A stretch of DNA of 41,859 nt from a virus, in IMG/VR virus record IMGVR_UViG_3300025617_001059, positions 1-41,859 of that record; one strand, given 5' to 3'. The position numbers and the translations under genes are program-made. How positions within the stretch are numbered: position 1 is the stretch's first letter; each line of letters starts with the position of its first letter. The notes below the pieces were generated by a model that searched no databases, had not been told where the DNA came from, and saw only the letters and a list, made by a program, of their open reading frames with translations. Positions 12,247-41,476 of the stretch are shown here, piece by piece.

Positions 12247-13245
12247 ATGAAAACTGATTTTACCAAAATACCATTTGACAATATTACAGAGTTTGGACAG
12301 CGTACCATGCTCAATACCAACTTATTTAACGTTAGTTGGATACTAGGAAGATTTTGTAACTATAACTGTAGTTACTGCTGGCCATATGCTAGATCTGATA
12401 AACCGGATCATCAGGACTTTGAAGTATATACAAACACTATTGATGAAATAAAACGTCAAGCACGAGCGAACGGATTTACAGATTTCCATTTTAGTTTTTC
12501 GGGCGGCGAGCCAACTGCATACAAGTACTTTGGACAACTCATAGAGTATTACTGTAGTGATATAGAAGGATCTTATCAAAGTTTGCATTTGACTACAAAC
12601 TTGTCGCCCGGATCTAAATGGTGGTCAAAATTTATAAATAAAACTGAAAGTCTTCAAAGGCGTAGTATAACAGCAAGTTTTCATGACGAATTTGCTAAAG
12701 AACAAGAATTTGGAGATAAGTGTTTACAACTCATGAAGGGAGGTGTATATGTTACAATCAATCAAGTTATGGTTCCGGAACGCTTCGAAGAGCTTTACAG
12801 CCGCTTGGAACGATTTGCCTCCAGAGGTATTAATGTCACTCTCAAGCCCCAGTCCGATCCAACCGCCTCTTATGTGGTACACGGGTATACCGAAGATCAA
12901 ATCCACAGAATGCAAACAGGATTCCCTCAAAGAATCCCAGACGAATATAAAAAACTAATACCGCTATATCAAGTTGAGATGCGCTCAGACACTGATGTCT
13001 ATAATTTGGATCAGGCCGAACGCCTAAATGCGTTTGGATTTAACAAGTTCGAAGGATGGACTTGTAATGCAGGATATCAAAGTTGTATTATAAGAGGCGA
13101 TGAAGTTAAGCGAGGATATAGTTGTAGTGACGAGCCCTTAGGCACGCTGTATGACGGTTTTACGCTGTTTAAGACACCATCTAAGTGCGTAACTGCTACA
13201 TGTGTAAGTAGTGCAGACTCAAAAATACCCAAGAGGAAAATATGA
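12247..13245 (+). CDS. Radical SAM enzyme with KGWxC-type C-terminal cysteine domain
   Basis: 332 residues. The 4Fe-4S/SAM site CxxxCxxC is at C37, C41, C44 (CNYNCSYC) and the GGEP motif at 86-89 (FSGGEP). After the barrel the chain has FEGWTCNAG (W271, C273) and further cysteines at 280, 293, 314 and 319, a SPASM-like region that probably holds an auxiliary cluster. The same signature occurs in the products at 21217, 22178 and 23944, forming a paralogue group. Enzymes with such domains modify peptides, proteins or sugars, often with a partner. First gene of the plus-strand block; its TGA overlaps the next ATG. Confidence 0.85.
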   Translation: MKTDFTKIPFDNITEFGQRTMLNTNLFNVSWILGRFCNYNCSYCWPYARSDKPDHQDFEVYTNTIDEIKRQARANGFTDFHFSFSGGEPTAYKYFGQLIEYYCSDIEGSYQSLHLTTNLSPGSKWWSKFINKTESLQRRSITASFHDEFAKEQEFGDKCLQLMKGGVYVTINQVMVPERFEELYSRLERFASRGINVTLKPQSDPTASYVVHGYTEDQIHRMQTGFPQRIPDEYKKLIPLYQVEMRSDTDVYNLDQAERLNAFGFNKFEGWTCNAGYQSCIIRGDEVKRGYSCSDEPLGTLYDGFTLFKTPSKCVTATCVSSADSKIPKRKI

Positions 13246-13979
13246 ATAAATTTGGAATACTAGGATACGGTTATGTGGGCAAAGCAACACATAAGGGTAT
13301 TCTCAAAGATGCAAAAGCAATTGTATATGACACACTGTTTGATATGGATAAGTCTGCGATCTATAATGCCGATACAGTGTTTATATGTATACCTACTAAT
13401 ACAGATAACGATATTGTTATTATTATTGACGAAATCAAAGAACTACAATCTAATAACCCCAATGTAGATATTGTTATCCGTAGCACATTACCTTTAGGTG
13501 CTTGCGAAAAAATTCAATCAGAAGTAGGACCTGTCATTTATATTCCGGAGTTCCTACGTGAACGACATTGGGATACCGATTGTTTAAAACGTCCGTTAGT
13601 TGTAGGATGTGATATAGTAGACTTCCTACCTGATTGGTTATTAAAAGAAGAAATACATGAGTGCAGTACAACCGAAGCAGAGCTTGTTAAGATGTTTTCT
13701 AATAATTTTGCTGTAGTACGTATTGCATTTGCAAATGTATTTTATGAGTTGTCAGAAAAAGTTGGTGCAGACTATAACACCGTAAAAGACATGTTCTTTA
13801 AAATTCAACAGGACCAAACATATATGGATGTTCCTGGTCATGACGGTACTAAAGGTTTCGGCGGCAAATGTTTGCCTAAAGATTTAGACTTCCTTATTGA
13901 TACATTAGATAAAGAAAATATTAATCAAAATTGGTTTAAGCATATTAGAGAGTTAAACAAAGAATGGACAAAGTCTTAG
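13242..13979 (+). CDS. UDP-sugar/GDP-sugar dehydrogenase, short form
   Basis: 245 residues. The N-terminal Rossmann motif GILGYGYVG is at 5-13. CIPTNTDND, STLPLGACE, PEFLRERHWDTDCLKRPLVVG and AELVKMFSNNF follow, the last giving the conserved Lys150 and Asn154. The catalytic Cys210 is in FGGKCLPKDLDFL. These are the UDP-glucose/GDP-mannose 6-dehydrogenase landmarks. The C-terminal nucleotide-sugar-binding Rossmann domain (about 150 residues) is absent; the protein ends soon after the catalytic loop. It may use a smaller substrate, work with another chain, or have lost sugar oxidation. Translation is coupled to the rSAM gene before it. Confidence 0.8.
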   Translation: MNKFGILGYGYVGKATHKGILKDAKAIVYDTLFDMDKSAIYNADTVFICIPTNTDNDIVIIIDEIKELQSNNPNVDIVIRSTLPLGACEKIQSEVGPVIYIPEFLRERHWDTDCLKRPLVVGCDIVDFLPDWLLKEEIHECSTTEAELVKMFSNNFAVVRIAFANVFYELSEKVGADYNTVKDMFFKIQQDQTYMDVPGHDGTKGFGGKCLPKDLDFLIDTLDKENINQNWFKHIRELNKEWTKS

Positions 13980-14836
13980 TAACAGGAGCCTCTGGCTTAC
14001 TCGGTAGAGAACTATGCAAACAACTTCGAGCAGAAGGCTACTATGTTGCGGCAGTTGACAATAACTTTAGGTACAAATATATTCCCGATTGTGACGAATA
14101 CAATACAGATGATATTACCAACTACACTTCTACAGTTGCAAACGATTACAAGTATGTGTTTCATATGGGCAATATAAACGGTACAAAATATTTTTATGAT
14201 ATACCCAATCAACTAATTGAGAGTAATATTAATGCTGATTTTGCAGTGTTTAACTTTGTAAAACAAAATCCTAACTGCAAACTAATATATGCCAGTAGTA
14301 GTGAAGTAGTAGCAGGATCAACAGAGTTTCCTACTGCGGAACAAACAGATATTTGTATTAAGGATATCCATAATCCTCGGTGGAGTTATCGGTTAGGAAA
14401 AATAGTTGGCGAAAATTATTTGATGAATAGTTCTTTAAATTTTTTAATTTTGAGATTCTTTAACATATTTGGAACTGCAAGCGGCCCAGGACATTTTGTA
14501 AGAGATGTATTAGATAAAATAGACAATGGAGACTTTACACTAATAGGTGCAGACGAAACACGTAGTTTTATTAGAGTAGAGGATAGCGTAGATGCTATTC
14601 TTAATATTTTTAATATAGCATCTAATGATATTGTTAACATCGGAAGCAATGAAGAAATTACTGTGTTAGAGGCGGCAAATATACTTGCCGCTCATAAAAA
14701 TAAAACAATAGAATGGCAGTTTGCGCCTAGCAATGTAGGCAGTGTAAAACGCCGTCGGCCAGACATTACAAAACTACTAGAATTATACCCTTCATTTAAA
14801 CCAGCCAAGTTTAAAGACGCAATAGGTGATTTATGA
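13964..14836 (+). CDS. NAD-dependent sugar epimerase/dehydratase (extended SDR)
   Basis: 290 residues. VTGASGLLG at 6-14 is the NAD-binding glycine motif. LIYASSSEVV supplies the catalytic Ser, and SYRLGK gives Tyr142 and Lys146 of the YxxxK pair. ILRFFNIFGTASGPGHFVRDVL and VNIGSNEEITVLEAANIL are typical of nucleotide-sugar epimerases. The likely substrate is a nucleoside diphosphate sugar, perhaps one oxidised by the preceding dehydrogenase. The gene overlaps that gene by 16 bases and the next by 4. Confidence 0.85.
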   Translation: MDKVLVTGASGLLGRELCKQLRAEGYYVAAVDNNFRYKYIPDCDEYNTDDITNYTSTVANDYKYVFHMGNINGTKYFYDIPNQLIESNINADFAVFNFVKQNPNCKLIYASSSEVVAGSTEFPTAEQTDICIKDIHNPRWSYRLGKIVGENYLMNSSLNFLILRFFNIFGTASGPGHFVRDVLDKIDNGDFTLIGADETRSFIRVEDSVDAILNIFNIASNDIVNIGSNEEITVLEAANILAAHKNKTIEWQFAPSNVGSVKRRRPDITKLLELYPSFKPAKFKDAIGDL

Positions 14837-15471
14837 AAATTGATATAAAAGATATTAAATTTTGGATGGATGCTATCCGCAACAGTGAAGACAGATCAAG
14901 AACATTAGAAAGTTTCTGGGGAGGTCAGTTAGAATCTAAAACTTGGCTAATAGAAAATTTAGAAAAAAGATCACGTATTGCAAACGCACATATTACAATT
15001 TATGGCGGATGGAATGGTGTACTAGCAAGTATGATATTCAATAGCGGCCTCGGTGTTAATTCTATTACAAGCATCGACATCGATCCGATATGCGAACCGA
15101 TTGCATCTATGATGAATAAACGTCAAGAGATGGAGGGCCGATTTGTTGCAGTAACAGGCGATATGGCAAATTATACCGCAATGTCAGATATTGTCATCAA
15201 CACAAGTTGCGAACACATAACCCAAGATCAGTATAATCAATGGATGCACAATCAGCCAGATGATGCGCTATTTGTACTTCAAAGTAATAATTACTACGAG
15301 TGCGATGAACATATTAACTGCTCATCTTCGATTGATGAGTTTGTAAAAAAATCAAATCTTCATCCGTTATGGAAGGGTGAAAAAGAAACACAAAAGTACA
15401 CACGGTACATGATAATTGGAAAGAAACATGACAGTAGTAACTCTAACAGACAGTGCAAAAGATCAAATTAA
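14833..15471 (+). CDS. SAM-dependent methyltransferase (class I-like)
   Basis: 212 residues. ITIYGGWNGVLASMIFNS at about 54-71 takes the place of motif I (glycine-rich SAM loop), and SITSIDIDPICEPIA gives the acidic residue at the end of strand 2. VAVTGDMANY and DIVINTSCEHI correspond to motifs II-IV. The C-terminal part is short. The acceptor is unknown; sugar or peptide methylation fits the neighbourhood. The last 44 bases overlap the IscA-like gene, so the final residues (SSNSNRQCKRSN) are probably not structurally important. Confidence 0.7.
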   Translation: MKIDIKDIKFWMDAIRNSEDRSRTLESFWGGQLESKTWLIENLEKRSRIANAHITIYGGWNGVLASMIFNSGLGVNSITSIDIDPICEPIASMMNKRQEMEGRFVAVTGDMANYTAMSDIVINTSCEHITQDQYNQWMHNQPDDALFVLQSNNYYECDEHINCSSSIDEFVKKSNLHPLWKGEKETQKYTRYMIIGKKHDSSNSNRQCKRSN

Positions 15472-15763
15472 CCAACTATGCGGCGACAACAATGAATGGG
15501 GAGTTAGTTTGAACATCAAAGGCGGCGGATGTGCAGGGTTCGAATACGAATGGGGATTTGCAAAGGAAGACTCGATTGAAAAGAACGATGAAGTAATTGA
15601 TACCGGCAACGGAAAATTTGTTGTTAGCTCGTATAGTATTATGTTTTTGTTAGGGTCAGTTATTGATTATAAAAAAGATATTATGGGTTCAATGTTTGAT
15701 ATACAGAACCCGAATGCAGTTAGCTCTTGCGGGTGCGGAGTTAGTGTGAACTTTGACACTTAA
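15428..15763 (+). CDS. iscA: A-type iron-sulfur carrier (IscA/HesB family)
   Basis: 111 residues from ATG at 15428 (GGAAAG just upstream). The three cluster-binding cysteines are C35 in GGGCAGFEY and C101/C103 in SSCGCGVS, in the canonical CxnCGCG arrangement, and the length matches the family. It carries and hands over Fe-S clusters to apo-proteins. HesB/IscA-like genes are known from T4-like cyanophages. Here the gene sits inside a block of rSAM genes, each of which needs at least one 4Fe-4S cluster, so local supply of clusters to these enzymes is a natural reading. Confidence 0.9.
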   Translation: MTVVTLTDSAKDQINQLCGDNNEWGVSLNIKGGGCAGFEYEWGFAKEDSIEKNDEVIDTGNGKFVVSSYSIMFLLGSVIDYKKDIMGSMFDIQNPNAVSSCGCGVSVNFDT

Positions 15764-15772
15764 GGATTAAAA

Positions 15773-16813
15773 ATGAAAAATACCATATGCCCACTAGCTT
15801 GGCACAATCTAGCACAAACACAACACGGGTCTGTTTCTATCTGTAGTAATAATATTGTTAATATGTCAGGAGAACAAAGCGACAATATTTCAACTGACTT
15901 TCAAATGATACGACACGAAATGATGAACGATATTCGTCCAGCATATTGCCAAAAATGTTTTATCGAAGAAGACAAAGGTTTTAATAGCAAACGACAAGAT
16001 GCACTTAAAAATAATAATGATTTTAATCCCAAAGATGAAAATCCTGGAAAACTAACGTCTATTGAAATATATAGCGATTGGGCATCTGATATTGAAGATA
16101 CCACAGATATTACTACTATAACTTTTTTAGAAAATAATAGTTTAGAACTTCAAAGTCATTCTGATTTTTTAATAGGGTTTGTTGCATCAGGACAATCAAG
16201 AAACATGTCATTGGTTTATAACCTCTCTAGTACCATTGGATTACATAATAAATTTAATAATATCTGGAACATGTTCAAACATGTTACATTAAACATTGCA
16301 ATCGACGGCATTGACGAAAAACATAACTGGTTTAATCCTAATATTCATTTCCATAAAATTGAAAACCATTTGAATTTTCTTAGAGGAACAGTAGGACACC
16401 ATGTTAGTATTAATGTAACTGCTAGAGTTAATATGTTAACTGCTCCATATCTCGATAGATTAGCATTATGGAAGAAAAATAGTGCCAATAGTTTAAATAA
16501 GGATGGCGGTCTAATTAACCTTTACATGGACACCAATCCGAACTTAGATATTCGTAGGTTGCCTATGCACTTAAAAGGTTATACAAAACTAAAAATTGAA
16601 AGACTAATAGACGCTCATCGAATTGATACAGTCTTTAATTCAGCAGTAACTGGTAGAAAGGTATGGACTGGTCTCATTGACTATATGTACTCCGAAGACT
16701 TGTCTCAACATTTACCTGATACATTAAATTATATAAAAGAACAAGACAACAAAAACAACACAAATTGGAAAGAAGTATTTCCAGAATTATCCGATATAGA
16801 GGACGATTTATGA
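15773..16813 (+). CDS. Degenerate N-twitch radical SAM-like protein lacking the CxxxCxxC motif
   Basis: 346 residues. It is clearly a paralogue of the 443-residue protein at 19899: both have an N-terminal CPLxW module (C6, C24, C59, C62 here), KCFxEE-KG--SKRQ, and a shared C-terminus (KVWTGLIDYMYSEDLS against QRWVGLIDYMMSEDWS, then NWKEVFPEL). Where the paralogue has LRLGNICNLKCVMC, this protein reads IEIYSDWASDIEDT, with no cysteine, and GGEP is also missing. It therefore cannot bind the SAM-cleaving cluster but may keep the N-terminal auxiliary cluster site. It is an intact open frame with AGGA before its ATG, which suggests a retained non-catalytic partner role rather than a decaying pseudogene. 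Confidence 0.75.
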   Translation: MKNTICPLAWHNLAQTQHGSVSICSNNIVNMSGEQSDNISTDFQMIRHEMMNDIRPAYCQKCFIEEDKGFNSKRQDALKNNNDFNPKDENPGKLTSIEIYSDWASDIEDTTDITTITFLENNSLELQSHSDFLIGFVASGQSRNMSLVYNLSSTIGLHNKFNNIWNMFKHVTLNIAIDGIDEKHNWFNPNIHFHKIENHLNFLRGTVGHHVSINVTARVNMLTAPYLDRLALWKKNSANSLNKDGGLINLYMDTNPNLDIRRLPMHLKGYTKLKIERLIDAHRIDTVFNSAVTGRKVWTGLIDYMYSEDLSQHLPDTLNYIKEQDNKNNTNWKEVFPELSDIEDDL

Positions 16814-17313
16814 GTTTAGAAGAATTTAAAAACAAAACATGGCAAACTCCGGTTGCTAAGGATATAAGCCAAGAGCAATTACAACGCCTAATTGACATTT
16901 TAGATATCGATGATTTCCAGACTGTGATTATTGTTAACACTGCTAGTGAATGCGGGTTTACACGACAGTATGCAGATTTACAAAAATTTTATAATGACAA
17001 CAAGGACAACGGATTATTAGTTGTTGCTCAACCTTCTAATAATTTTGGTCAGCAAGAACCTGGAGAAGATAACGAAATTAAAGAATTTTGTAATACTAAC
17101 TTTGGAGTAACTTTTCCTATCTTGCCCAAGGCAGATGTAGTTAACGAAAACTCAACCGAATTGTATAATCTACTAGCAGAGATTACTGGTCAACGTCCAA
17201 TGTGGAACTTCCACAAATACATTATTTCAAAAAAACTTAATAAACTAATAAGCACAAATCACTTCAATGAGATTGACGAGCGATTTATTAATGACGTGAA
17301 AGCAACGTTATGA
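16810..17313 (+). CDS. Glutathione peroxidase-like thiol peroxidase
   Basis: 167 residues from ATG at 16810, which overlaps the preceding stop (ATGA). The peroxidatic Cys48 is in NTASECGFTRQY. PSNNFGQQEPG is the second family block, with Asn where the catalytic Gln often sits, and Trp132-Asn133 are in MWNFHKY. It has Cys rather than selenocysteine, so it probably uses thioredoxin or a similar reductant. It would remove peroxides, plausibly protecting the many oxygen-sensitive Fe-S enzymes encoded around it. Confidence 0.88.
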   Translation: MSLEEFKNKTWQTPVAKDISQEQLQRLIDILDIDDFQTVIIVNTASECGFTRQYADLQKFYNDNKDNGLLVVAQPSNNFGQQEPGEDNEIKEFCNTNFGVTFPILPKADVVNENSTELYNLLAEITGQRPMWNFHKYIISKKLNKLISTNHFNEIDERFINDVKATL

Positions 17314-18857
17314 ACCATGCCCTGTTCTTTTCGTTAACCGGTAAACGCTGGGAAAGAGCATTGTGGCCGCACAGGGTTGCTACCTTCTTAAGAATGCACG
17401 ACTGGGACGCCGAGGTAATTGATTATACAGCTTTTTGGAAATTAGAAGAGTTACAAGAATTAGTTAGATCGCGTGTATCGAAAAATACAGTTATGTTTTG
17501 TTTTGGAACTGCATTTTTAAATCCTTGGAGTCCGTACCTAAATACATTTATAAAGTGGCTTAAAGATGAGTATCCAAAAATACCTGTAGTTGTAGGCGGG
17601 CAAAATGCATTAACCACTCCTGCTGAACATGTAGACTACTGGGTTGACAGTTACGGAGAAAATGCAATACTTGCATTATGCCGCCATCTTATCGGAACTC
17701 TATCGGAACCTCTTCGTACTGATCCTGCATTTTTTGGTAGCAAACAAGTCATTAGAGGATTGTCTCACTATCCTTCTACTCCGCTAGAATCGTATATTGT
17801 TGACTATGAACCTCGAGATTTTATAACACCTTACGATTGTCCTCAAATCGAAACTGCTCGAGGTTGTATGTTTAATTGTTCGTATTGTAATTTTCCGTTG
17901 TTAGGACAAACTAAAGATGTTAGTATTAGCAAGGAACAATTTAAAAAACAGATACAAACAGGATTTGAAAAATGGGGTGTTGTTAATTGGAGAGTAATGG
18001 ATGAGACATTCAATGACAGGCCCGAAAAGATACAAAAATATGCACAGGCAGTTGACGAATTAGGATACAACATATGGATGTGCGGATTTGCAAGGGGTGA
18101 CCTTGTAATCAATCACGAAAAGTATTGGGACGACTACATACGATTAGGATTCTTAGGACACTCTATGGGCATCGAAACTTTTAACAGAGATGCTGGCAAA
18201 TTTGTCCGCAAAGGAGTTGATACAAAAAAGCTCCAAGAAGGATTGTTAAAATTCCAAATGTACACAGATATTCATGCACCTAATCGTTATAGAGCTAACA
18301 TACAAATGATTTGCGGCATACCTGGCGAAACTGAAGAGTCGTGGTATAATTCTATGGATTGGCTTAACACTCATTGGACAAGACAAAGTGCTAGTGCGCA
18401 TATATTAGAAATCGGCGACTACGATGAAAGCCTTACAAATCAAAGCAGATTTACAAAGCAATTAAAAGACAACGGTCTTAAAAAATTAAAAGCTCAACGC
18501 AATGACGGATACGTTGTAACAAAAAGTAAAGATGACGATGTTACATTCCAATCAACTACTCCTCGAGGCGGTGGCGTAGGAAGTACTCGAAACGATATTG
18601 TTATTTGGGAACATGATACAATGGACTGGTACAAGGCAAAAGAGTTAGTTTCTGAGTTTTACAGTGATAAAGGATTCAAGGGACTTGCCGGATGTAATCC
18701 TTTCTTATCTGATAGATTATTCCAGTACCATGAAACTAGCAAGTACGAAGAAATATATGATAAAAAGATTTCCGAAACACCGACCTCTGATCCTAAATTT
18801 AAAAGGCTAGTACAAAGTTATATCGATAACAAATTAAATTGGAATTGTAATGTTTAA
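17310..18857 (+). CDS. B12-binding-domain-type radical SAM protein
   Basis: 515 residues. Residues 1-135 form an alpha/beta domain of the kind that precedes class B rSAM enzymes (MFCFGTAFLNPW, IPVVVGGQNALT, HVDYWVDSYGENA). The cobalamin-ligand DxHxxG motif is not evident. The rSAM site is C186, C190, C193 in ARGCMFNCSYCNFP. Later segments WRVMDETFNDRPEKI, LGHSMGIETFNRD and MICGIPGETEESW are typical of the B12-rSAM barrel. Candidate chemistry is methylation, ring contraction or another radical reaction on an unactivated carbon. It overlaps both neighbours by a few bases. Confidence 0.82.
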   Translation: MNHALFFSLTGKRWERALWPHRVATFLRMHDWDAEVIDYTAFWKLEELQELVRSRVSKNTVMFCFGTAFLNPWSPYLNTFIKWLKDEYPKIPVVVGGQNALTTPAEHVDYWVDSYGENAILALCRHLIGTLSEPLRTDPAFFGSKQVIRGLSHYPSTPLESYIVDYEPRDFITPYDCPQIETARGCMFNCSYCNFPLLGQTKDVSISKEQFKKQIQTGFEKWGVVNWRVMDETFNDRPEKIQKYAQAVDELGYNIWMCGFARGDLVINHEKYWDDYIRLGFLGHSMGIETFNRDAGKFVRKGVDTKKLQEGLLKFQMYTDIHAPNRYRANIQMICGIPGETEESWYNSMDWLNTHWTRQSASAHILEIGDYDESLTNQSRFTKQLKDNGLKKLKAQRNDGYVVTKSKDDDVTFQSTTPRGGGVGSTRNDIVIWEHDTMDWYKAKELVSEFYSDKGFKGLAGCNPFLSDRLFQYHETSKYEEIYDKKISETPTSDPKFKRLVQSYIDNKLNWNCNV

Positions 18858-19923
18858 ATTTAATCAGTTGCGAGACATGCACCTAGAAATAACAAATGCT
18901 TGTCAGGCAAGTTGCCCAATGTGTCCTAGAAATATTAATAGTGGAATTGAAAACCCTTTGATAACTGTCAAAGAATGGACATTGGCTGATTTTAAAAAAA
19001 TCATGTGTAAGGACACATTGTCTCAGCTAGACGGTTTTTACTTTTGCGGAAACTACGGTGATCCGATCATCGCTAAAGATTTGATTCCGATGATAGAATA
19101 TGCAGTTTCAATTAACCCGCAGTTATTCATTCGGGTACATACTAATGGCGGAGCAAGGACAACTGATTGGTGGTCTCGGTTAGCATCTGCATTACCTCAG
19201 AGGCACGAAGTAATCTTTGCATTAGACGGAGTTGGTAGCACTCACAGTTTATACAGAGTAGGAACAAAATACGATACTGTGATTAACAATGCAACAGCAT
19301 TTATACAAGCAGGAGGTGTTGCCCAATGGTGTTTTATTAAGTTTAAACATAACGAACATCAGGAACAGCAAGCAAAGCAAATCGCAGAAGAATTAAAATT
19401 TGCAAAATTTGTGGTTAAAAATTCCAGCAGGTTTATTTTAGAACCTAGAGTTCCTGTGCTTGATAGAACTGGTACACACTTGTACGACATAGAGCCTAGT
19501 ACCGATACTGAGTTAAAATTTGTAGATGAAAAAACTATTAACAGTTATAAAGAAATTCTTCAATTGTCTACAATTGATTGTCAAGTAAAAAACAATAAAG
19601 AAGTATTCATTGATGCATACGGTACACTGTTTCCCTGTTGCTGGCTTGCTAGTATAAGTTTTGATTATGTTGAAGACAACGAAGCATTTGAAGTTCGGTA
19701 CGAAATGAAAAAAGAACAACAGAATCTTATTGACGAGTTAGGCGGGCTAAACAAATTAAATGCTAAAAATAATAGTATTGAGGATATTATAGATTCTAAA
19801 GAATACCAAACCATATGGAAGCCTCATTGGGATAACAAAGAACTAATTACTTGTGCAAGGCAATGCGGAAACGCTGACTTTGCAAAATCTAAAGATCAAT
19901 GGATAGAAGTAAAACAACTGTGA
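18850..19923 (+). CDS. Radical SAM enzyme with SPASM-like C-terminus
   Basis: 357 residues. C18, C22, C25 in ITNACQASCPMCPRN are the cluster ligands; FYFCGNYGDPI replaces GGEP with a related GDP loop, common in SPASM-domain oxidoreductases. The C-terminal region has IDAYGTLFPCCWLASI and CARQCGNADF, six or so cysteines arranged as in SPASM/twitch domains. Proteins of this type are found in peptide- and cofactor-maturing systems and in marine surface-polysaccharide loci. The last codons overlap the next gene. Confidence 0.82.
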   Translation: MFKFNQLRDMHLEITNACQASCPMCPRNINSGIENPLITVKEWTLADFKKIMCKDTLSQLDGFYFCGNYGDPIIAKDLIPMIEYAVSINPQLFIRVHTNGGARTTDWWSRLASALPQRHEVIFALDGVGSTHSLYRVGTKYDTVINNATAFIQAGGVAQWCFIKFKHNEHQEQQAKQIAEELKFAKFVVKNSSRFILEPRVPVLDRTGTHLYDIEPSTDTELKFVDEKTINSYKEILQLSTIDCQVKNNKEVFIDAYGTLFPCCWLASISFDYVEDNEAFEVRYEMKKEQQNLIDELGGLNKLNAKNNSIEDIIDSKEYQTIWKPHWDNKELITCARQCGNADFAKSKDQWIEVKQL

Positions 19924-33473: not shown

Positions 33474-34903
33474 GTGTCCAATTATTCAACACATCCCATC
33501 AGTCTAAAATCGTATATTGCATAACTGATTACACGCAGATCTATCACAGTGGCTATGCAAAAGAAACTGCTAAGAATCTAAGCGACTATATGATTTCAAA
33601 AATAACTAGACACGGTCGAGATATACTAATCGGCGACAACGTACAAGAGCTAGTTAATACTGCATGTGAGTATAATTACAGTCACGCTGTTGTTCTTGCC
33701 ATCGGCACGAGTCCAAGACTAAGTGATAGACTGTATTCAGCGATTGATGAAAAATGTAAAGAGAATTTTTTATTAGCAGGACACATCTTAGATCGAGGTG
33801 ATAGCTATTACGAAATACACAGACAATTTTTTATTTTAAATTTACAGCAATATAAAGATATCGGATGTCCCTTTTTTGGCGAAGAAGAATTTGAAGAACA
33901 CACTAAGATAGAACCTATCCGAAGTAAAGAAGTAGTAAACAACGATAGTGAAATCCCAGTGTATGTTAATAAAGGCACTGTGTTGAAGAAGTACACGGAA
34001 AAACGATTTGGATGGAATCTATTTACAGTTGCCGTGGATCAGGACAAGACTCTTACTGATGTAGGAGACAAAATACGAAATAATAAAAAATACTTTTATT
34101 ACGAACACGAACATGTATTTCTTAGAGAGGTGACTGAACTATATCGTTATAGTCACTTCTGTAATAACTTTTTTGCTCCGTGGAATAGTGATAAACTAAG
34201 AAACGATGTAGAATTACAAAACAATCTAGAACATTACATCACTGTAGGCACAGGATTGAACTGGGTGTACAATATTAATAAAGTAGGCTTTAACGAAACT
34301 ACTAGAGTTACATTTACTGACAACAGTTTCAGTACTTTAAGATTTATGCAGACTATGGTTAATGAATGGGACGGTGCAGACTATCCTAGTTTTTATGAAA
34401 AGCATCACGATCTAATTCCTAACAGGCCATACATAACGGTAGATGAGGTTATGCCTGAACTTCGCATATGGTGGGAACAATTTACATCACAGTTTAAAAA
34501 CTGGATTGTAGTTTGGAATCAAATTAAACAGTTACAGTTTGAATATAAGCTGATCGATTATAATGCTAATTGGGACTTGTCGTGGATTGACCCTAATCTA
34601 AACACTCTTATAAATTTAAGTGATTTATATAATCACATTCCTTACGTTCCGTTTACTCCGTTGAAATATAGAGTTGCAAGAGAGAATAAACTAATTGACG
34701 AAATAAACAAAATTAATCCAGATTTCTATTTGTGTTTAACTAGCAGAGTGGGCAATGCGTTTACTGATGTCGAAGAAATATATTTCGGAAAGGCTAGTGA
34801 ATATCAATTGTGGGATATTAATAAATTCAATGTTCCGTTATGGCACGCCGATGAATGGAATAGTTATTGTCCTATTACAAAGGAAGTAAAAATACTAAAA
34901 TGA
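33470..34903 (+). CDS. Large protein of unknown function
   Basis: 477 residues from ATG at 33470, overlapping the previous stop (ATGA). The first 130 residues look like an alpha/beta domain (KIVYCITDYTQIYHSGYAK, HAVVLAIGTSPRLSDRLY, NFLLAGHILDRGD). The central part contains FFAPWNSDKLRNDVE and VGTGLNWVYNINKVGFNET, reminiscent of a small-molecule or methyltransferase-like pocket. The C-terminal 150 residues are Trp/Tyr/Asp-rich. I do not recognise the family. It may be the enzyme or scaffold that defines this block's substrate. Confidence 0.6.
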   Translation: MSVQLFNTSHQSKIVYCITDYTQIYHSGYAKETAKNLSDYMISKITRHGRDILIGDNVQELVNTACEYNYSHAVVLAIGTSPRLSDRLYSAIDEKCKENFLLAGHILDRGDSYYEIHRQFFILNLQQYKDIGCPFFGEEEFEEHTKIEPIRSKEVVNNDSEIPVYVNKGTVLKKYTEKRFGWNLFTVAVDQDKTLTDVGDKIRNNKKYFYYEHEHVFLREVTELYRYSHFCNNFFAPWNSDKLRNDVELQNNLEHYITVGTGLNWVYNINKVGFNETTRVTFTDNSFSTLRFMQTMVNEWDGADYPSFYEKHHDLIPNRPYITVDEVMPELRIWWEQFTSQFKNWIVVWNQIKQLQFEYKLIDYNANWDLSWIDPNLNTLINLSDLYNHIPYVPFTPLKYRVARENKLIDEINKINPDFYLCLTSRVGNAFTDVEEIYFGKASEYQLWDINKFNVPLWHADEWNSYCPITKEVKILK

Positions 34904-34916: not shown

Positions 34917-35540
34917 ATGAAAGAGATTGATTTAAAATTTAATTTTAATAAACTTAAAGACTATGTACTAGAGGTTCAAACTGTTTATAAAAATCAGATG
35001 TGGACAGTAGGAAATCCAAACCGGTCCCTGTACACCGAACAAGAAATGTTAAAAATCAATCAAGACATTGATTCTCTTTGTCAAGAAGGACACACGCTTG
35101 AAGGACTAAAAAAGATTCACGGTTGGGTATTGTATGGACCGTTGGTCGACAGTACGGATATAGGACCTCCTTATAATTCAATTCGACCTAGAGATAAGTT
35201 ATTACTGCAACATACACAATTGTCTTATGGTGAAGGCAAAAACTTAATATCAAAAATTCCAGGACTTAAAAGAGCATTACTGGCAAAGTTTGATCCTGGT
35301 GCTGTTTTACCGTTGCATTCAGACAACGATAACGAAGCAAAAATACATATTCCTATTACATCAAACGACCGTTGTGAGTTTATTCTTGATGATATATCAT
35401 ACAAGTTACTACCGGGAAAAGCATACTATGTGGATACTACAATACCGCATACAGTTTTTAACTACGGCGACACAGAACGAACTCATCTAGTAATACACTT
35501 TGATAAACAATATACAGAGCAAGTATTGGAAGGCACATGA
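34917..35540 (+). CDS. Aspartyl/asparaginyl hydroxylase-like 2OG oxygenase
   Basis: 207 residues. AKFDPGAVLPLHSDNDNEAKIHIPI supplies H134 and D136. LLPGKAYYVDTTIPHTVFNYGDTERTHLVIHF supplies H178 and R188, with HxxxN and a ten-residue H-to-R spacing typical of AspH-like proteins. The N-terminal 110 residues are helical. It is a tandem neighbour of a second AspH-like gene. Likely to hydroxylate a side chain or a free amino-acid-like molecule. Confidence 0.78.
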   Translation: MKEIDLKFNFNKLKDYVLEVQTVYKNQMWTVGNPNRSLYTEQEMLKINQDIDSLCQEGHTLEGLKKIHGWVLYGPLVDSTDIGPPYNSIRPRDKLLLQHTQLSYGEGKNLISKIPGLKRALLAKFDPGAVLPLHSDNDNEAKIHIPITSNDRCEFILDDISYKLLPGKAYYVDTTIPHTVFNYGDTERTHLVIHFDKQYTEQVLEGT

Positions 35541-36184
35541 AAGAATTTTTTCAAACAGATGCAAAGTATCTAAAGCTAGACATACCTATTCCATCTATAG
35601 AAATGTACTTCGAAGCAGAAAATCTTATTGATAGATTTACAGCACATCGCCCTAGTGAACAATTACATCAAGGTTGGAAAAGTCTTACCTTATACGGACT
35701 AGATAACAATCGTCACGAAAACTGGAATGTCTATGGTTACAGTTCGGCCGCGCATGCCGCAAAAGATTTTGTTTGGTCTGAAGAAAGCAAAGCGTGTCCA
35801 ATAATTACTAATTGGTTACAGAACGTTTTTCCTTGTAATCGATACGGCAGAGTTAGACTGATGCTATTAGAGCCCGGTGGCTATATCGGATTTCACAGTG
35901 ACTCGAAAATGAGCGTAGCTGAAAATATAAACATTGCAATTACTAATCCTCCTGACTGCAAATGGTTATGGAAAGATGGAACTGAATTAGAAATGCAAGA
36001 AGGCGGCGTGTATGCAATGAATCTAAGTTACGAGCATAGTGTAGTAAATCGTAGTAACGAACCTCGACTACATATGATTGTTGCAAGACACGATAGTACC
36101 GAAGAATGGAAACAATTAATAAAGCAGTCTGCCGATGCTAGTAATCAGGACGGCGAATTTATATTGCTAGACGCTGTTCCTTAA
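35537..36184 (+). CDS. Aspartyl/asparaginyl hydroxylase-like 2OG oxygenase
   Basis: 215 residues. RLMLLEPGGYIGFHSDSKMS gives H120 and D122; GGVYAMNLSYEHSVVNRSNEPRLHMIV gives H167 and R177. The pattern EPGGYIxxHxD ... H-x-V-x-N matches the AspH-like cupin oxygenases. Its TAA stop forms TTAA together with the converging TauD-like gene's stop, so the two coding regions interlock by four bases. Coupled to the previous gene by an ATGA overlap. Confidence 0.78.
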   Translation: MKEFFQTDAKYLKLDIPIPSIEMYFEAENLIDRFTAHRPSEQLHQGWKSLTLYGLDNNRHENWNVYGYSSAAHAAKDFVWSEESKACPIITNWLQNVFPCNRYGRVRLMLLEPGGYIGFHSDSKMSVAENINIAITNPPDCKWLWKDGTELEMQEGGVYAMNLSYEHSVVNRSNEPRLHMIVARHDSTEEWKQLIKQSADASNQDGEFILLDAVP

Positions 36185-37023
36185 ATGTTAGTATAGTCCA
36201 GATCGTTAAAATCCATTACTGCTCTATGAAGTAATCTATTTTTCATATCAGGAAAAGGCCATCTTTTGTGTATACCTAAACTCTGTTCAGATATAATCAA
36301 ATCACCATCTCGCCAATCATGATGATACATATACTTTTCTTGAGTAGTATGCTCTACTAACGGTTGCTTAAATTCGTCACTTTCTTCTTTAGACATACCA
36401 ACAAAACGACTTATCTGCAGAAACGGAAAGAATAATCCGGTTTGTCCTGCTAGGTTAGTATGTACAATGTTTGGTGTAAAATGTTCTTGTCCTTCTTCAC
36501 CGTCTGTCCAATGACACATTTTAGCTTTTACATTTTGAATTTTTTGTTTAGTATCTTCATCAAGATCTCTATATGATAGTACGTTATTATTCCAAGTTGT
36601 TCGACTTCCGTGCGAGCCTTCAACAGCATAGAGCCATGTGACTTGCCTGCGGTCGGCATGTGTTGCATCGTTGCAATGCCATTGTAGTTCTTCTTCCATT
36701 CCTGCAAAGCCCGGATTGCCGTACGCATCTAGTGCGGCAGTTACTCTAATAATATAATCTTTTGAGTGAGGAACTATACATCCTCTGTATCCTGCTTTAT
36801 CAGGATGAGACAGTACTTCGCTATTAAATGCAAATGGATCTTTAAACATATCAAGTACACGTACTTCGTCATCTAATTCTAGTAATTGATTTCGAATTAC
36901 TACGCAAGTGTACTTTGCAATTAGTTTGCAGATATCGTCAATGTCTTGTTGCCGAGCATCCCTTAGATCTAAATTTTCTATTATTACGGTCCAGCCGTTT
37001 TCATGTAGTTTATAATCAATCAT
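36181..37023 (-). CDS. TauD/TfdA-like dioxygenase with H-x-N at the iron site
   Basis: 280 residues. MIDYKLHENGWTVIIENLDLRD and TCVVIRNQ open the TauD-type fold. The iron motif reads ELQWHCNDATH (H116, N118), with Asn in place of the usual Asp. Distal residues are intact: ISEQSLGIHKRW (H252) and NRLLHRAVMDF (R267). The same H-x-N occurs in the paralogue at 37858, while the one between them has H-x-D. Whether the enzyme still hydroxylates, or uses the freed site differently, is open. First Met overlaps the upstream TGA. Confidence 0.78.
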   Translation of the reverse strand: MIDYKLHENGWTVIIENLDLRDARQQDIDDICKLIAKYTCVVIRNQLLELDDEVRVLDMFKDPFAFNSEVLSHPDKAGYRGCIVPHSKDYIIRVTAALDAYGNPGFAGMEEELQWHCNDATHADRRQVTWLYAVEGSHGSRTTWNNNVLSYRDLDEDTKQKIQNVKAKMCHWTDGEEGQEHFTPNIVHTNLAGQTGLFFPFLQISRFVGMSKEESDEFKQPLVEHTTQEKYMYHHDWRDGDLIISEQSLGIHKRWPFPDMKNRLLHRAVMDFNDLDYTNI

Positions 37024-37868
37024 TGTTCTGTCCTGTGTTCTTGGTTAACGTAATCAAATAATGCACGGTGTATTCTGCGACTTTCTATAAATTCGCATCT
37101 GTCTCTTTTGTGCAGTCCTGACCACTGATCTGAAATTACAATATCTCCGGTGTCCCATTCGTGTACATACAAGTAAGACGGATCAGTAATATACTTCTTA
37201 ACTTCTAATATAATTTCTTTAGATTCTTCACGAGTCATACCTTCAAAATGATGTATTTGATTGAAGGGAAAATACATGTACTTGTTTCCAGTTTGATTCA
37301 TTCTTACAACTTTTGCTTTGTAGTCATTAACAATTTCTCCAGGAGGCCAATACGTACCGTCTGGATCTTGTTTAAAGGTATCTACATCAAAGTCTTGACT
37401 CTTCATTAACACTGCATATAGTGATTCTAATTCTTTTTTTATGCTGTTTGGCATTCGTTGATATGCTAGTATATTATTTGCATATGTAGTAGTGCTTCCT
37501 ATAACGTTGCGAACTCCATGCAACCATATTAGAGATGGTTTATGTTTTAACTGCCAATGAAAGTCGTGGTGCCAATCCATTTGTCCTACATGATCAGCAA
37601 TTCCTCCGTTCCCGCCTACTTTAAGTAGCAGTCCATTGGTGTCTGGAATTACGTACTCATTATCGTTTTCATATAATGCAGTGGGGCTATTAAACATCTT
37701 AATAACACGAAGTTGAGCTGGAACATCTATATTTTGTTTTTTTATAACAATTGTAGTATGTTTGTATATTAAATTGCTAATCAATTCAATATCATCATCA
37801 GTCGAATTGTTGAGATCAAATTTCTCAACAATAGGAGTCCAACCGTTATTATGAAGTCTATACTCCAT
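37020..37868 (-). CDS. TauD/TfdA-like dioxygenase, canonical H-x-D
   Basis: 282 residues from ATG at 37868, inside the end of the preceding paralogue (11-base overlap). MEYRLHNNGWTPIVEKFDL aligns with the starts of both neighbours. The iron motif is complete (QMDWHHDFHW: H100, D102), and DIVISDQWSGLHKRDR and ESRRIHRALFDY supply H253 and R268. It is the most diverged of the three, with a Gly-rich NGGIADH before the metal site. It probably has ordinary 2OG-dependent hydroxylase or related activity on an unknown substrate. Confidence 0.8.
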   Translation of the reverse strand: MEYRLHNNGWTPIVEKFDLNNSTDDDIELISNLIYKHTTIVIKKQNIDVPAQLRVIKMFNSPTALYENDNEYVIPDTNGLLLKVGGNGGIADHVGQMDWHHDFHWQLKHKPSLIWLHGVRNVIGSTTTYANNILAYQRMPNSIKKELESLYAVLMKSQDFDVDTFKQDPDGTYWPPGEIVNDYKAKVVRMNQTGNKYMYFPFNQIHHFEGMTREESKEIILEVKKYITDPSYLYVHEWDTGDIVISDQWSGLHKRDRCEFIESRRIHRALFDYVNQEHRTEQ

Positions 37869-38718
37869 CAGTATAATCTTGCTCCGGAAAATCAAATACT
37901 GCTCTATGCAACAGACGATTCTTAATGTTTGCAAATTTCCAACGCTTGTGAATTCCTAACCATTGTTCGCTTAGGACCAAGTCGCCGTCTTGCCAATCAT
38001 GGTGATAGCAATATTTTTCTTGAGTAGTGTATTCTGCTAACTCGTTTATAATAGGCTGACTTTCTTCAGCTGTCATTCCTTCGAATCTATCAATTTGTAA
38101 AAAAGGAAAAAACAGTCCTGTTTGACCTGCATTATTTGTATGTACAATGCAAGGTGTATAATCTTCTTTAACGTAACCTTTGTCTTGATCATCTCGATCG
38201 GAATCGTTTTGATCCAGTCCACCTTTCATATAGGCATGCAACCCTTTACAAAATTCTTTCTTGCTTTCATCCATATCTTGATATGAATATACATTATTAT
38301 TCCAACTAGTTCTCGAACCTTCAGTACCATATACTCCGTACAACCAAACGATTGGACGTCTGTCTTTTCGGTACGGATGATTACAGTGCCATACCATCTC
38401 GTCTTCGAACCCTGCAATCCCTTCAACACCGTGTTCGTTCAATGCTCCAGTAACTCGAGTTATCTTTCCGTCAGTTCCGGGAACATGATAGTGCATATAA
38501 TTAGGATCTGATTCTTCGTAAAATTCTTCAGGGTCTTTAAACAAATGTATTAGTCGCATTTCGTCTTCTAGTTCTAACATTTGATGTCTTAGAACTACAC
38601 AGGTATGTTTTGAAATTAACTTAGCAAGAAAATTGATATGTTCTTGAGTTGCATCACGTAAATCAAAGTTTTCGATAATGACAGTCCATCCGTTATTGTG
38701 TAATTTATAATCTATCAT
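37858..38718 (-). CDS. TauD/TfdA-like dioxygenase with H-x-N at the iron site
   Basis: 286 residues. The N-terminus is nearly identical to that of the protein at 36181. DEMVWHCNHPYRKDRRPIVWLYGVYG shows H111-C-N113 in place of H-x-D. LSEQWLGIHKRWKF (H257) and NRLLHRAVFDF (R272) are intact. A 20-residue acidic insertion (QNDSDRDDQDKG) lies before the YTPCIVHTNNAGQTGLFFPF block. First gene of the three-gene TauD unit, with AGGAAATACTAGG before its ATG and a late box about 75 bases upstream. Confidence 0.8.
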   Translation of the reverse strand: MIDYKLHNNGWTVIIENFDLRDATQEHINFLAKLISKHTCVVLRHQMLELEDEMRLIHLFKDPEEFYEESDPNYMHYHVPGTDGKITRVTGALNEHGVEGIAGFEDEMVWHCNHPYRKDRRPIVWLYGVYGTEGSRTSWNNNVYSYQDMDESKKEFCKGLHAYMKGGLDQNDSDRDDQDKGYVKEDYTPCIVHTNNAGQTGLFFPFLQIDRFEGMTAEESQPIINELAEYTTQEKYCYHHDWQDGDLVLSEQWLGIHKRWKFANIKNRLLHRAVFDFPEQDYTDGV

Positions 38719-38860: not shown

Positions 38861-40216
38861 TTAGTTTAAGTTTGCCCAACCGCCAGTTGTACCATCAGTA
38901 TTGCCTTGGAACTTAGGATTACCTGCACCGTCTCCGTCTGTAACAAATACCATCATTCCTGCTTCAGGGGACGGTATTGCCGCATCACGTGCAGATGCGT
39001 CTGCGTAAATACCAGTTTTAACTGCTCCTGGTACTTTTAAATGACTTCCTGTAAACGAGTATACATATGAACTGGAATTATTGTCTCCAATTGCAATCTG
39101 TAGTGTCGATGCTGGAGCACTGTCTGTTAGTGTTGCTCCAGCATCCCACGTTGTAAGTAATACAGGTCCAGGCAAATAGTCTCCAGAATAGTAACCACCA
39201 AACTTAAAGTTTGCAATTTTATCACCTGCTACTGTATCAACAGGGTTTGCAAGAGTTCCTCGTTGCGATTGGACAGATACATCTGGAGGATTAGAACCGT
39301 CAGTAATTAGATTGAATCTATATGCATCCTGTACTTCGGATGATAAGTTAACAGTACTAGAACCTATAATTGAATTTGCATTAATTTCGATGTCTGTATT
39401 GTCAAAGTCTGTAGCGTACACTCTACTAGCAACTCCGTCGACTAGAATCGCAGAATTGTCGCCAAACACACTGCCTGTTAGATCGCCTACAAACACACCA
39501 GATACTGTGTTTGTTTCTGTGTTAATAATCACAGTACTGTCAGAACCAATAATATCAATTTGCTGTTGACCGCCTGCGCCACCAGCACCAATTGGTGCAC
39601 CGTCGATTGTTGATCCTAATGGTAAGTTAACACCTACCCCATTAGTTCCGATTCCACTGTTACCAATCCACACTGTGTCTGACAAATAAATTTCTTTAAA
39701 CTTATTTGCAACGCTACCAATTTCGGCCGTACCATTGTTGATAGGTACAATATGATTTTGCACTTTTCCGTCTAAGTTAAACGTTCCAGTTACGCTGTCA
39801 ATCATTAAGGAGCTGTCGTCTGCAAAAATACTACCTTTGTAATCACCGGTAACATTGCCATCAACAGTTAAATTGCCAGTAATGTTGACGTTTCCTGAAC
39901 CAATAATATTGTTACCGTTTAAATCTAGGTCTTGTAGCATTGCGCCGTAACTAACTGTTGCTGAAATTGTATCAGCAACATCGTCGTATACAAAAGAAAC
40001 ACCTGAATGTGTTCCGCTAGTAAGTGCATTACCAGCCGCGTCTCGTGCATTCTCGTCTGTGTACCCTGTTATGGGCGATAAGTCTCTAAGTAATGTTGCG
40101 CCATCACCGACGTACATGCGCTGTTCGTCAGTAATCCATACAAGCTCACCGTCCTGTGGCGCTGTAGCTAGAACTTGACGTTCCGCTTCTGTTCCTCGTC
40201 TAATTTGCAAAGGCAT
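38861..40216 (-). CDS. Tail-fibre/adhesin protein with Mtd-like N-terminal domain
   Basis: 451 residues. The start MPLQIRRGTEAERQVLATAP and ELVWITDEQRMYVGDGATLL matches the N-terminal attachment domain of Mtd-type and other phage receptor-binding proteins (IQ-RRGT-AE ... GE---T---K-Y-GDG). A long Gly/Asn/Asp/Thr-rich beta-repeat body follows, with recurring NITGNLTVDGNVTGDYKGSIF and VFVGDLTGSVFGDNSA units. The C-terminal tip ends GNTDGTTGGWANLN. It is a virion protein, probably for host attachment. AGGAG lies before the ATG, with a late box upstream and a terminator downstream. Confidence 0.85.
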   Translation of the reverse strand: MPLQIRRGTEAERQVLATAPQDGELVWITDEQRMYVGDGATLLRDLSPITGYTDENARDAAGNALTSGTHSGVSFVYDDVADTISATVSYGAMLQDLDLNGNNIIGSGNVNITGNLTVDGNVTGDYKGSIFADDSSLMIDSVTGTFNLDGKVQNHIVPINNGTAEIGSVANKFKEIYLSDTVWIGNSGIGTNGVGVNLPLGSTIDGAPIGAGGAGGQQQIDIIGSDSTVIINTETNTVSGVFVGDLTGSVFGDNSAILVDGVASRVYATDFDNTDIEINANSIIGSSTVNLSSEVQDAYRFNLITDGSNPPDVSVQSQRGTLANPVDTVAGDKIANFKFGGYYSGDYLPGPVLLTTWDAGATLTDSAPASTLQIAIGDNNSSSYVYSFTGSHLKVPGAVKTGIYADASARDAAIPSPEAGMMVFVTDGDGAGNPKFQGNTDGTTGGWANLN

Positions 40217-40250
40217 TTATGTCTCCTGGCAATAATTCATTCTATGCAAG

Positions 40251-40258: not shown

Positions 40259-40269
40259 CAGACTAACCA

Positions 40270-40848
40270 TTATTTGTATTCTATATCGGCTGCCAATATA
40301 AATCGATAGTCATTACTTTGCGGGATGCCAGGACGGTGATATAGACTACCTGGATACACTAACCAATGAAAATCAGAGGGCGGAACAAAGAATTTATTAC
40401 CGCTTTCCGGGCCGTTAGGCGCAAACTCTGTGCCGCACAGCTTTCGATCTTCTACATCCTCTGGTATTTTTAAGTAGAATATACCACTCATTATTTTGCC
40501 GTCTGGAGTTTTAGGATTCCAATGATGATGCCATAAGCCTGATCGTTCTTCGGCATCTTGTTTACGTGTCATAAAACTCCACGCTTGCATATTACTTACT
40601 TGTGCTTCTCTGCCTAGTGACAGAAATACACTGGTAATAAAACTCATCCTAAACTTTAACCAACACTGTTCTTGTCTAGCAAACAAGTTTTCTTTTGTTT
40701 GATACTTAGGACTATTTTCCCAATAGTTGCCTGAGTCGATTACATTCTCAATAATCGTGATTGCTTCATCAACATCACTCTGACTAATAATACTATTCCA
40801 ATCAAACTTTTTAAAGAGGTCTGATTGTTCTACAATCGTATTAGTCAT
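40270..40848 (-). CDS. 2OG-Fe(II) oxygenase-like protein
   Basis: 192 residues. GLWHHHWNPKTPDGKIMSGIFYLKIPED is the HxH...SGxFYLxxP block of the phage/bacterial 2OG-FeII_Oxy_5-like family (H107-H109). FHWLVYPGSLYHRPGIPQSNDYRFILAAD gives H171 and R182. The WN after the histidines replaces the usual Pro-rich turn. It overlaps the related gene before it by 8 bases and sits directly upstream of the adhesin gene, so a virion-linked role is possible. Confidence 0.68.
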   Translation of the reverse strand: MTNTIVEQSDLFKKFDWNSIISQSDVDEAITIIENVIDSGNYWENSPKYQTKENLFARQEQCWLKFRMSFITSVFLSLGREAQVSNMQAWSFMTRKQDAEERSGLWHHHWNPKTPDGKIMSGIFYLKIPEDVEDRKLCGTEFAPNGPESGNKFFVPPSDFHWLVYPGSLYHRPGIPQSNDYRFILAADIEYK

Positions 40849-41476
40849 CTTGTTGTTCCTTGGGCATTAATCTTACATCCCACGCCAAGATAGTTCTAGT
40901 TCCGTATCCTTTCCATGGATAAACAGTATGACTAACATAACTAGGAAAAACAATCATCTTCATTGGCTCCGGTTTAAAGCGCCACTGATCCGTAAAAATT
41001 AAATGTGCAGGATTTCGTATTACTGGAAGTCTAAACTCAATATTAGCATCGCTGGGTTTTGAATCAGGATCTAGATCTGGGACATCAATATAGATGTTGC
41101 CGCTAATATGTGCTTCGTGATTGTGAAGAGCTTGATAATCTCCACTGTTTTGCTTAATTGTCCATGCACTAACTAATACTGGATCATATCCTTCAAGCTC
41201 ATCTTTACCACTGACTTTGAGTATGTTGCCAATATACTCTCGACACCGTGCTTCAATAAATGTTTTAAGCACCGATGTATCTAATCCAAATTCATTAGGA
41301 ACAAGTTGTACTTGCTGACCGCCTCGAATACTAATATTGGGATTTCCAGCATCATTATGTTCTTCATGTTCGTGAGCAAGCCTTGCATTCATTTGCAGTT
41401 CTGTAAAGACATCTGAAGGAACATCGTCAACAGCCATCACTGTCGGATTAAAGTAAGCAAATTTCATTTCATTCAT
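40841..41476 (-). CDS. 2OG-Fe(II) oxygenase, Oxy_5-like family
   Basis: 211 residues. SAWTIKQNSGDYQALHNHEAHISGNIYIDVPDL is the family block with H118 and H120. KMIVFPSYVSHTVYPWKGYGTRTILAWDVR gives H183 and R194. Proteins of this family are frequent in T4-like cyanophages, usually near structural genes, and their substrate is not known. The start overlaps the end of a small basic protein gene by 8 bases. Confidence 0.78.
   Translation of the reverse strand: MNEMKFAYFNPTVMAVDDVPSDVFTELQMNARLAHEHEEHNDAGNPNISIRGGQQVQLVPNEFGLDTSVLKTFIEARCREYIGNILKVSGKDELEGYDPVLVSAWTIKQNSGDYQALHNHEAHISGNIYIDVPDLDPDSKPSDANIEFRLPVIRNPAHLIFTDQWRFKPEPMKMIVFPSYVSHTVYPWKGYGTRTILAWDVRLMPKEQQDD

Follow-up and report, generated by a model that had tools for sequence, protein, structure and literature searches.

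A conserved and nearly virus-only cassette of radical-SAM and 2-oxoglutarate-dependent enzymes, read as a multi-step tailoring system

Radical S-adenosylmethionine (rSAM) enzymes catalyse some of the most demanding reactions in biology, and a viral DNA that encodes ten of them side by side raises the question of what such a concentration might serve. We address this question for the IMG/VR virus record IMGVR_UViG_3300025617_001059, whose positions 1 to 41,859 (41,859 bases, hereafter the window) contain a block at 12247-41476 in which rSAM proteins are mixed with oxygenases of the 2-oxoglutarate (2OG) type. A first-pass annotation of the sequence had suggested a modification system directed at a glycan or at a virion or surface protein. 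We show that the genes of this system stay linked and intact and are subject to selection, that the cassette they form is nearly restricted to viruses, and that the block is best read as one form of a virus-borne multi-step tailoring cassette.

The enzyme inventory of the first-pass annotation proved sound. All ten proteins with an intact CxxxCxxC motif (by start coordinate: 12247, 17310, 18850, 19899, 21217, 22178, 23944, 25085, 30080 and 31089) were detected by the Radical_SAM profile PF04055, nine of them over the cut-off and 18850 below it, and shuffling the 35 open reading frames (ORFs) of the block left a mean of 0.1 and a maximum of 2 such proteins against the real ten. Seven of the twelve 2OG-type proteins were recovered by profile (34917, 35537, 36181, 37020, 37858, 40270 and 40841), one (26396) by a weak profile match together with the invariant HxD...H...R/K columns of its family alignment, and four (27727, 28263, 28781 and 29278) by such columns; the bare 2OG regular expression is not diagnostic, as 24 ORFs match it versus 18.8 after shuffling. 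To this inventory we add an Fe-S carrier (15416), a glutathione-peroxidase-like protein (16765), the cobalamin-type nature of the rSAM protein 17310, a protein uniting domains like GT-A glycosyltransferases (GTs) and methyltransferases (33458), and an Mtd_N protein (38861-40216).

A query with the protein at 25085-26356 (family 0) retrieved 274 relatives in viral contigs, from which we kept 80 loci, corresponding to 46 distinct ones at 95% identity, and clustered their proteins into families; counts out of 81 refer to these loci plus the window. Eleven families (0-10) constitute a core, comprising six of rSAM enzymes (0, 1, 2, 4, 7 and 8), the methyltransferase-like family 3, the QueC-like PP-loop family 5, the 2OG families 6 and 9, and the pseudokinase family 10; family 5 is core in the relatives and absent from this window. 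These genes recur in a common order: rSAM family 8, methyltransferase-like family 3, rSAM family 4, the N-terminal-twitch family 2 and rSAM family 7, facing rSAM family 1 and the N-terminal-twitch family 0, after which come PP-loop family 5, 2OG family 6 and an arm of 2OG families 9, 11 and 13, pseudokinase families 10, 17, 26 and 27 and sometimes the Zn-ribbon rSAM family 16, with occasional permutation of families 3, 4 and 8. Among the 16 non-redundant complete loci, defined by the presence of both 10-kb flanks, families 0, 1, 2, 9 and 10 are present in 16/16, 4 and 6 in 15/16, 3 and 8 in 14/16, 7 and 11 in 13/16, and 5 in 12/16. Each of ten long contigs encodes 10-15 rSAM enzymes, which in nine of the ten lie entirely within a single island of ~15-43 kb; G005, the tenth, has most of them in the island and a second, separate group at C1:114906-122619. 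The packing is tighter than the gaps of mostly under 150 bases noted at first, the median core gap in the related islands being -8 nt, with 90% of gaps at or below 27 nt and only two of 715 above 120 nt.

The CxxxCxxC motif is retained in all full-length members of 13 rSAM families, as is HxD..H..R/K in all those of 13 2OG-type families, and median ratios of nonsynonymous to synonymous substitution (dN/dS) of 0.04-0.15 across families indicate purifying selection. The comparison of gene content across related phages that had been proposed with the first-pass annotation separates a conserved, ordered core from an arm of 2OG and accessory genes that differ between loci; rather than unrelated singletons scattered through other genomes, we find a core with fixed order, intact motifs and low dN/dS. 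Pairwise identities of families 1, 2, 3, 5 and 8 track those of family 0 (rho 0.63-0.81, with 0/500 permutations; rho 0.78 for family 3), whereas families 4, 6, 9 and 10 do not co-vary with it and family 7 does so weakly (rho 0.23); the value for family 4, which includes paralogues, may be blurred. Hence, we read families 0, 1, 2, 3, 5 and 8 as a probable co-inherited inner core, the partners of which appear to be swapped more freely. Fusions also join components of the system, namely a pseudokinase with a 2OG protein in L001 and a 2OG protein with a GT/methyltransferase-like protein of the 33458 type in L073, the latter being a 619-aa product of L073:1343-3202.

The cassette is nearly virus-only. 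A scan of ~85,000 prokaryote genomes, relying on short conserved peptides so that distant cellular relatives may escape, returned no relative of family 0, versus 274 viral contigs, and a single match for family 1, versus at least 569 viral contigs. The lone match (L092) is a 3.5-kb contig of a Thermoplasmata metagenome-assembled genome that carries families 1, 15, 2 and 4 in phage order, and in all likelihood it represents a piece of phage DNA that was binned wrongly; on the outcome of the two scans we rejected a host origin of the cassette. Its carriers are large, uncultured aquatic phages. No near DNA match to the window was found in isolated phages, and a tblastn search of families 0, 1, 5, 9 and 16 against 50,697 phage records uncovered no close isolate. 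T4-type gp23 is encoded by five of the ten long contigs, which are the five largest, and was not found in the window itself; the gp23 region of one of these contigs (G001) is closest at the DNA level (68.7%) to Serratia BF and Erwinia SNUABM, both jumbo phages.

Read from the left, the block opens with the STM4011-like rSAM family 8 of the putative inner core (12247..13245, +; PF04055 E=1.3e-12), which occurs in 57/81 loci with CxxxCxxC in all full-length members. Two accessory genes follow, a UDP-glucose/GDP-mannose dehydrogenase-like one (13242..13979, +; PF00984 E=2e-17) and one for an NAD-dependent epimerase/dehydratase (13964..14836, +; PF01370 E=2.5e-29), each in 13/81 loci and matching the nucleotide-sugar enzymes of the first-pass annotation. 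Next to them lies the class I methyltransferase-like family 3, also of the inner core (14833..15471, +; 70/81 loci), whose fold is assigned from a sequence motif. The A-type Fe-S cluster carrier (15416..15763, +; PF01521 E=9e-18) is an accessory gene present, among the 81 loci, in the window only, and is succeeded by a degenerate N-terminal-twitch rSAM relative without CxxxCxxC (15773..16813, +), for which phmmer finds relatives in 81/81 loci and as best match only the protein itself, and by the accessory glutathione-peroxidase-like gene (16765..17313, +; PF00255 E=7e-27). The run of intact rSAM genes then resumes with a PhpK-like protein of the B12-binding type (family 24; 17310..18857, +; PF04055 E=5e-14; B12-binding E=1.3e-3; TIGR04479 61 bits, cut-off 600), family 4 (18850..19923, +; 69/81 loci, motif kept in 76/76), the inner-core N-terminal-twitch family 2 (19899..21230, +; NF033640 414 bits, cut-off 170; PF13186; 78/81 loci) and family 7 (21217..22260, +; PF04055 E=4e-9; 57/81 loci). 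On the opposite strand lie family 1 of the inner core, with an extra C-terminal Cys motif (22178..23080, -; 81/81 loci), a protein of family 21 without Pfam or PHROG match (23064..24086, -; 15 loci), rSAM family 29 (23944..25095, -; PF04055 E=2e-6, motif 12/12) and the inner-core N-terminal-twitch family 0 (25085..26356, -; NF033640 349 bits, cut-off 170; PF13186; 274 viral loci).

Beyond family 0 lies the oxygenase-rich part of the block. It contains an Asp/Asn-hydroxylase-like 2OG oxygenase of family 6 (26396..27070, +; H81xD83..H125..R135 invariant; Asp_Arg_Hydrox E=0.0036; 64/81 loci), a degenerate protein-kinase-like protein of family 27 detected with the family 10 profile (27063..27740, +), a 2OG-type oxygenase of family 11 (27727..28266, +; H104xD106..H161 invariant), two copies of 2OG family 13 (28263..28784 and 28781..29278, both -; H102xD104..H154..R164 invariant in each), the first with a profile match to family 11 at E=4e-22, and the 2OG-type family 9 (29278..30099, -; H182xD184..H239..R252 invariant; dN/dS 0.041). 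Two Zn-ribbon rSAM proteins of the HMPTM/Tes/TrsS-like family 16 follow (30080..31135, -; PF23545 and PF04055 both E=1e-14; Tes model 93 bits, cut-off 450; and 31089..32183, -; PF23545 E=1.5e-10, PF04055 E=4e-11), and then the pseudokinase of family 10 (32234..32917, +) and a protein of family 14 that is GNAT-like by eye only (32907..33473, +; 25 loci; no Pfam or PHROG match). The methyltransferase and GNAT labels given earlier to 14833 and 32907 agree with the appearance of the sequences and find no backing in a profile match. After the two-domain protein (33458..34903, +) come two Asp/Asn hydroxylases of the 2OG type (34917..35540 and 35537..36184, both +; PF05118, Asp_Arg_Hydrox, E=4e-12 and E=7e-14), three TauD-type 2OG oxygenases (36181..37023, 37020..37934 and 37858..38718, all -; PF02668 E=3e-22, 1e-29 and 1e-23), the Mtd_N fibre-like protein (38861..40216, -; PF18454 E=6e-7) and two further 2OG oxygenases (40270..40848, -; phrog_81 E=1e-6; and 40841..41476, -; PF13759, 2OG-FeII_Oxy_5, E=7e-14). 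In islands of relatives we also observed a tryptophan halogenase (L004:15007-16566; PF04820, E=5e-93) and, at a similar place in L014, a class III aminotransferase. Left of the block, the window encodes at 417-4362 what amounts to an extra sugar pathway of PMM-like HAD, CMP-KDO-synthetase-like cytidylyltransferase, DAHP/KDO8P-synthase-family, GT8-like and PTPS/QueD-like proteins, as well as a further 2OG oxygenase (PF13640) at 1123-1704. A 379-aa protein at 8980-10119, serine hydroxymethyltransferase-like by eye only, could be a one-carbon source for the HMPTM-like rSAM enzymes.

Three kinds of component bear on what the cassette might do besides radical and oxygenase chemistry. The kinase-like proteins of the first-pass annotation find support in the structural model of the family 10 protein (pLDDT 90), for which protein kinases are the top Foldseek matches (E=6e-6); as its HRD and DFG aspartates are replaced despite the kinase fold, we classify it as a pseudokinase. 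The 481-aa protein of 33458-34903 (model pLDDT 78) combines a first, GT-A glycosyltransferase-like domain with a second domain like NNMT-type methyltransferases; Foldseek places it near NNMT and GT-A enzymes at weak scores only (PDB E of at least 1.5e-3), weak matches to viral GT25/GT2 models agree with this, and its family counts 26 proteins of related loci. A further GT-like family, family 12 (36 loci), shows a VDADA motif of the DxD type and a weak Glycos_transf_2 match; its members range from ~224 to 1057 aa, and that of L001:19155-21089 consists of tandem repeats of one unit. In 12/16 complete non-redundant loci, GT-like families occur at a distance of no more than 10 kb. The PP-loop family 5 retains its SGGADS PP-loop and SC..CxxCFWC columns in 14 aligned members, matching Pfam QueC (PF06508) at E=1e-3, below the cut-off, and a QueC-like PHROG at E=6e-8. 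Since QueC-family enzymes of the type IV cyclic-oligonucleotide-based anti-phage signalling system (CBASS) are reported to conjugate a nucleobase to a protein (PMC11996544), a QueC-like fold alone need not mean nucleic-acid chemistry. Profile searches of the PDB with the PP-loop, 2OG and GT-like families were uninformative.

The position of the cassette supplies a further hint. In 9 of the 11 contigs searched, the window included, the rSAM island has an Mtd_N fibre gene 4-13 kb away from its 2OG/pseudokinase end; none was found in G005 and G008. It is mainly because this gene adjoins the 2OG end that we consider a surface or virion substrate, and we regard the adjacency as a circumstantial pointer.

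Taking these observations together, we tentatively favour the possibility that the cassette decorates a surface glycan or glycoprotein. Of the first-pass proposal, the idea of a modification system gains from gene order, motif retention, purifying selection, inner-core co-variation and the fusions; its glycan or virion/surface-protein substrate fits the Mtd_N gene, the frequent GT-like genes and the loci of phages K566 and CP220 described below, and is one that we infer from context. The inner core might produce a shared modification or building block by radical chemistry; the rSAM enzymes would act on C-H bonds through radicals, the methyltransferase-like protein would methylate, and the PP-loop enzyme might activate a carboxylate in the fashion of QueC, or amidate. 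The 2OG arm could then hydroxylate and further substitute the product, to which GT-like proteins, where present, would add sugars, with the pseudokinases possibly serving as scaffolds or as holders and presenters of the substrate; in the window, the A-type carrier and the peroxidase could load and guard Fe-S clusters under oxygen. Placed, for example, on the fibre of the phage or the envelope of its host, the product might alter adsorption or block superinfection. Weighing against this reading, the GT-A match of 33458 is a weak one, the GT-like and nucleotide-sugar genes are accessory and outside the core, and proximity to a fibre gene is no proof of action on the fibre. Moreover, SPASM/twitch rSAM enzymes with established function act mostly on peptides. 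A bolder proposal, to which we give a minority chance, is that of a virus-exclusive system without cellular counterpart that joins O2-sensitive rSAM and O2-dependent 2OG chemistry in a new surface modification, diversified in aquatic large phages through an arms race over adsorption or superinfection.

The same genes could be read in the manner of ribosomally synthesized and post-translationally modified peptides (RiPPs), with the rSAM, 2OG and PP-loop enzymes modifying side chains of a large protein, for example a fibre, encoded elsewhere, and no glycan involved. A mix of rSAM, 2OG and methyltransferase enzymes is indeed that of the polytheonamide-type proteusins, and SPASM/twitch rSAM enzymes are present here (19899 and 25085, by PF13186 and NF033640), as is, in relatives, a member of the QueC family, whose type IV CBASS enzymes reportedly join a nucleobase and a protein. 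Nevertheless, no precursor fits: as the first-pass annotation had noted, no stand-alone precursor gene is apparent, the core gaps being too short to hold one (ORFs of <60 aa overlapping other genes fell outside the search), which implies a substrate that either has its gene in another place or belongs to the carbohydrates or small molecules. The block proteins also show no PqqD or RiPP recognition element (RRE) match in Pfam at E<=0.01, a threshold that remote RREs could escape, and GT-like and sugar genes are frequent, so that we judge this alternative unlikely while granting it appreciable weight. Somewhat more doubtful still is a diffusible small molecule, whether toxin, signal or protective metabolite, made during infection. 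The halogenase and aminotransferase in the arm of some relatives would suit it, and it is one of the readings offered by Iyer et al. 2021 for a cyanophage halogenase/2OG cluster (PMC7824862); however, Pfam identifies no transporter and no nonribosomal peptide or polyketide synthase gene in the block, and a strongly conserved core whose fibre-side arm varies is better suited to surface diversification.

A further alternative is that DNA of the phage, or tRNA, is hypermodified, for instance with 7-deazaguanine. The QueC-like enzyme of most relatives, the PTPS/QueD-like gene of the window at 3913-4362 and the weak matches of family 1, which include QueE, point that way. We consider this alternative highly improbable: the TGT/DpdA family was found in 0/11 contigs, which may be incomplete, versus 14/14 control genomes, and PTPS in 2/11, which led us to reject deazaguanine modification, just as the thymidylate synthase family, in 2/11 contigs, led us to reject pyrimidine hypermodification; the number of SPASM-type rSAM enzymes would moreover be left unaccounted for. 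Least probable of all is a mere heap of unrelated auxiliary genes in a hypervariable region. The variation of 2OG and accessory genes by locus and the many scattered 2OG genes of phage HTVC008M are in its favour, but it does not account for a core that combines fixed order, complete motifs, low dN/dS and co-variation. Among more specific candidates, viperin (pVip) was rejected, the rSAM proteins scoring a sub-threshold 26-48 bits versus a cut-off of 180, and so were the other PADLOC defence systems, with partial sub-threshold matches to the rSAM core only. A weak structural match to the lysyl hydroxylase LH3 led us to seek collagen-like repeats as a hydroxylase or GT substrate; none were found in the window, the examined parts of G001 and G004 or the 80 loci.

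How does the cassette compare with known systems? The view of the first-pass annotation that no phage system of this composition had been described was too strong. Timms et al. 2010 reported 11 and 12 rSAM genes in the Campylobacter phages CP220 and CPt10, members of a group (group II) with an interchangeable ~10-kb module of five rSAM genes and a putative amidinotransferase, and proposed a boost to host metabolism (PMC2853527). Like these T4-related phages, our loci have at least five rSAM genes per module (10 in the block and 10-15 in each of ten relatives), and in CP220 rSAM genes accompany nucleotide-diphospho-sugar transferases, flanked by baseplate/PAAR genes and, at a greater distance, by a fibre gene. 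In contrast, the Campylobacter rSAM proteins are just 20-38% identical to family 1, mostly over part of their length, and the annotation of the CP220 stretch examined lists neither 2OG nor pseudokinase genes; the window, in turn, has no glycine amidinotransferase, and a candidate in some relatives (L004:18760-19842) lacks a Pfam match at E<=0.05. The host-recognition islands of pelagimyophages include rSAM cassettes in the vicinity of fibre and glycosyltransferase genes; these cassettes are mentioned in passing and their content is not analysed there (PMC7029224, 2020). They resemble our loci in being variable islands of aquatic T4-like phages, but the major capsid proteins of the window's relatives share ~33% identity with the HTVC008M protein, and gene order in G001 and G004 is unlike that of HTVC008M; the pelagimyophage position is between VrlC and gp14, and PF11649, used for gp14 as a position marker, matched nowhere.

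The cyanophage clusters of Iyer et al. 2021 comprise 8-12 genes for halogenase, 2OG, carbamoyltransferase and methyltransferase proteins, for which capsule decoration or a secondary metabolite was proposed (PMC7824862). They share with our loci a 2OG, halogenase and methyltransferase tailoring set, the halogenase in some relatives only, but rSAM enzymes go unmentioned there. The polytheonamide-type proteusins are alike in uniting rSAM, 2OG and methyltransferase enzymes, and differ from the cassette, which has far more rSAM enzymes and comes without a precursor gene or RRE match. A partial analogue in an isolated phage is found in Vibrio phage K566 (255 kb; L089:19956-27755), with tandem N-terminal-twitch rSAM genes interleaved with genes that are GT-like by eye, at ~23% identity and without a match to families 1, 3, 5, 9 or 10 in the stretch examined. 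The conserved core combination is not described in the open PMC literature searched. The cassette is real, conserved and nearly virus-only, and the rSAM precedents in Campylobacter phages and pelagimyophages were known already, likewise without explanation. Ten or more rSAM enzymes as a conserved unit, apparently almost virus-only and present in hundreds of contigs, narrow the puzzle that rSAM-rich phages have posed from 2010 onwards to specified families for which a substrate can be sought, and offer new enzymes outside the known cellular families.

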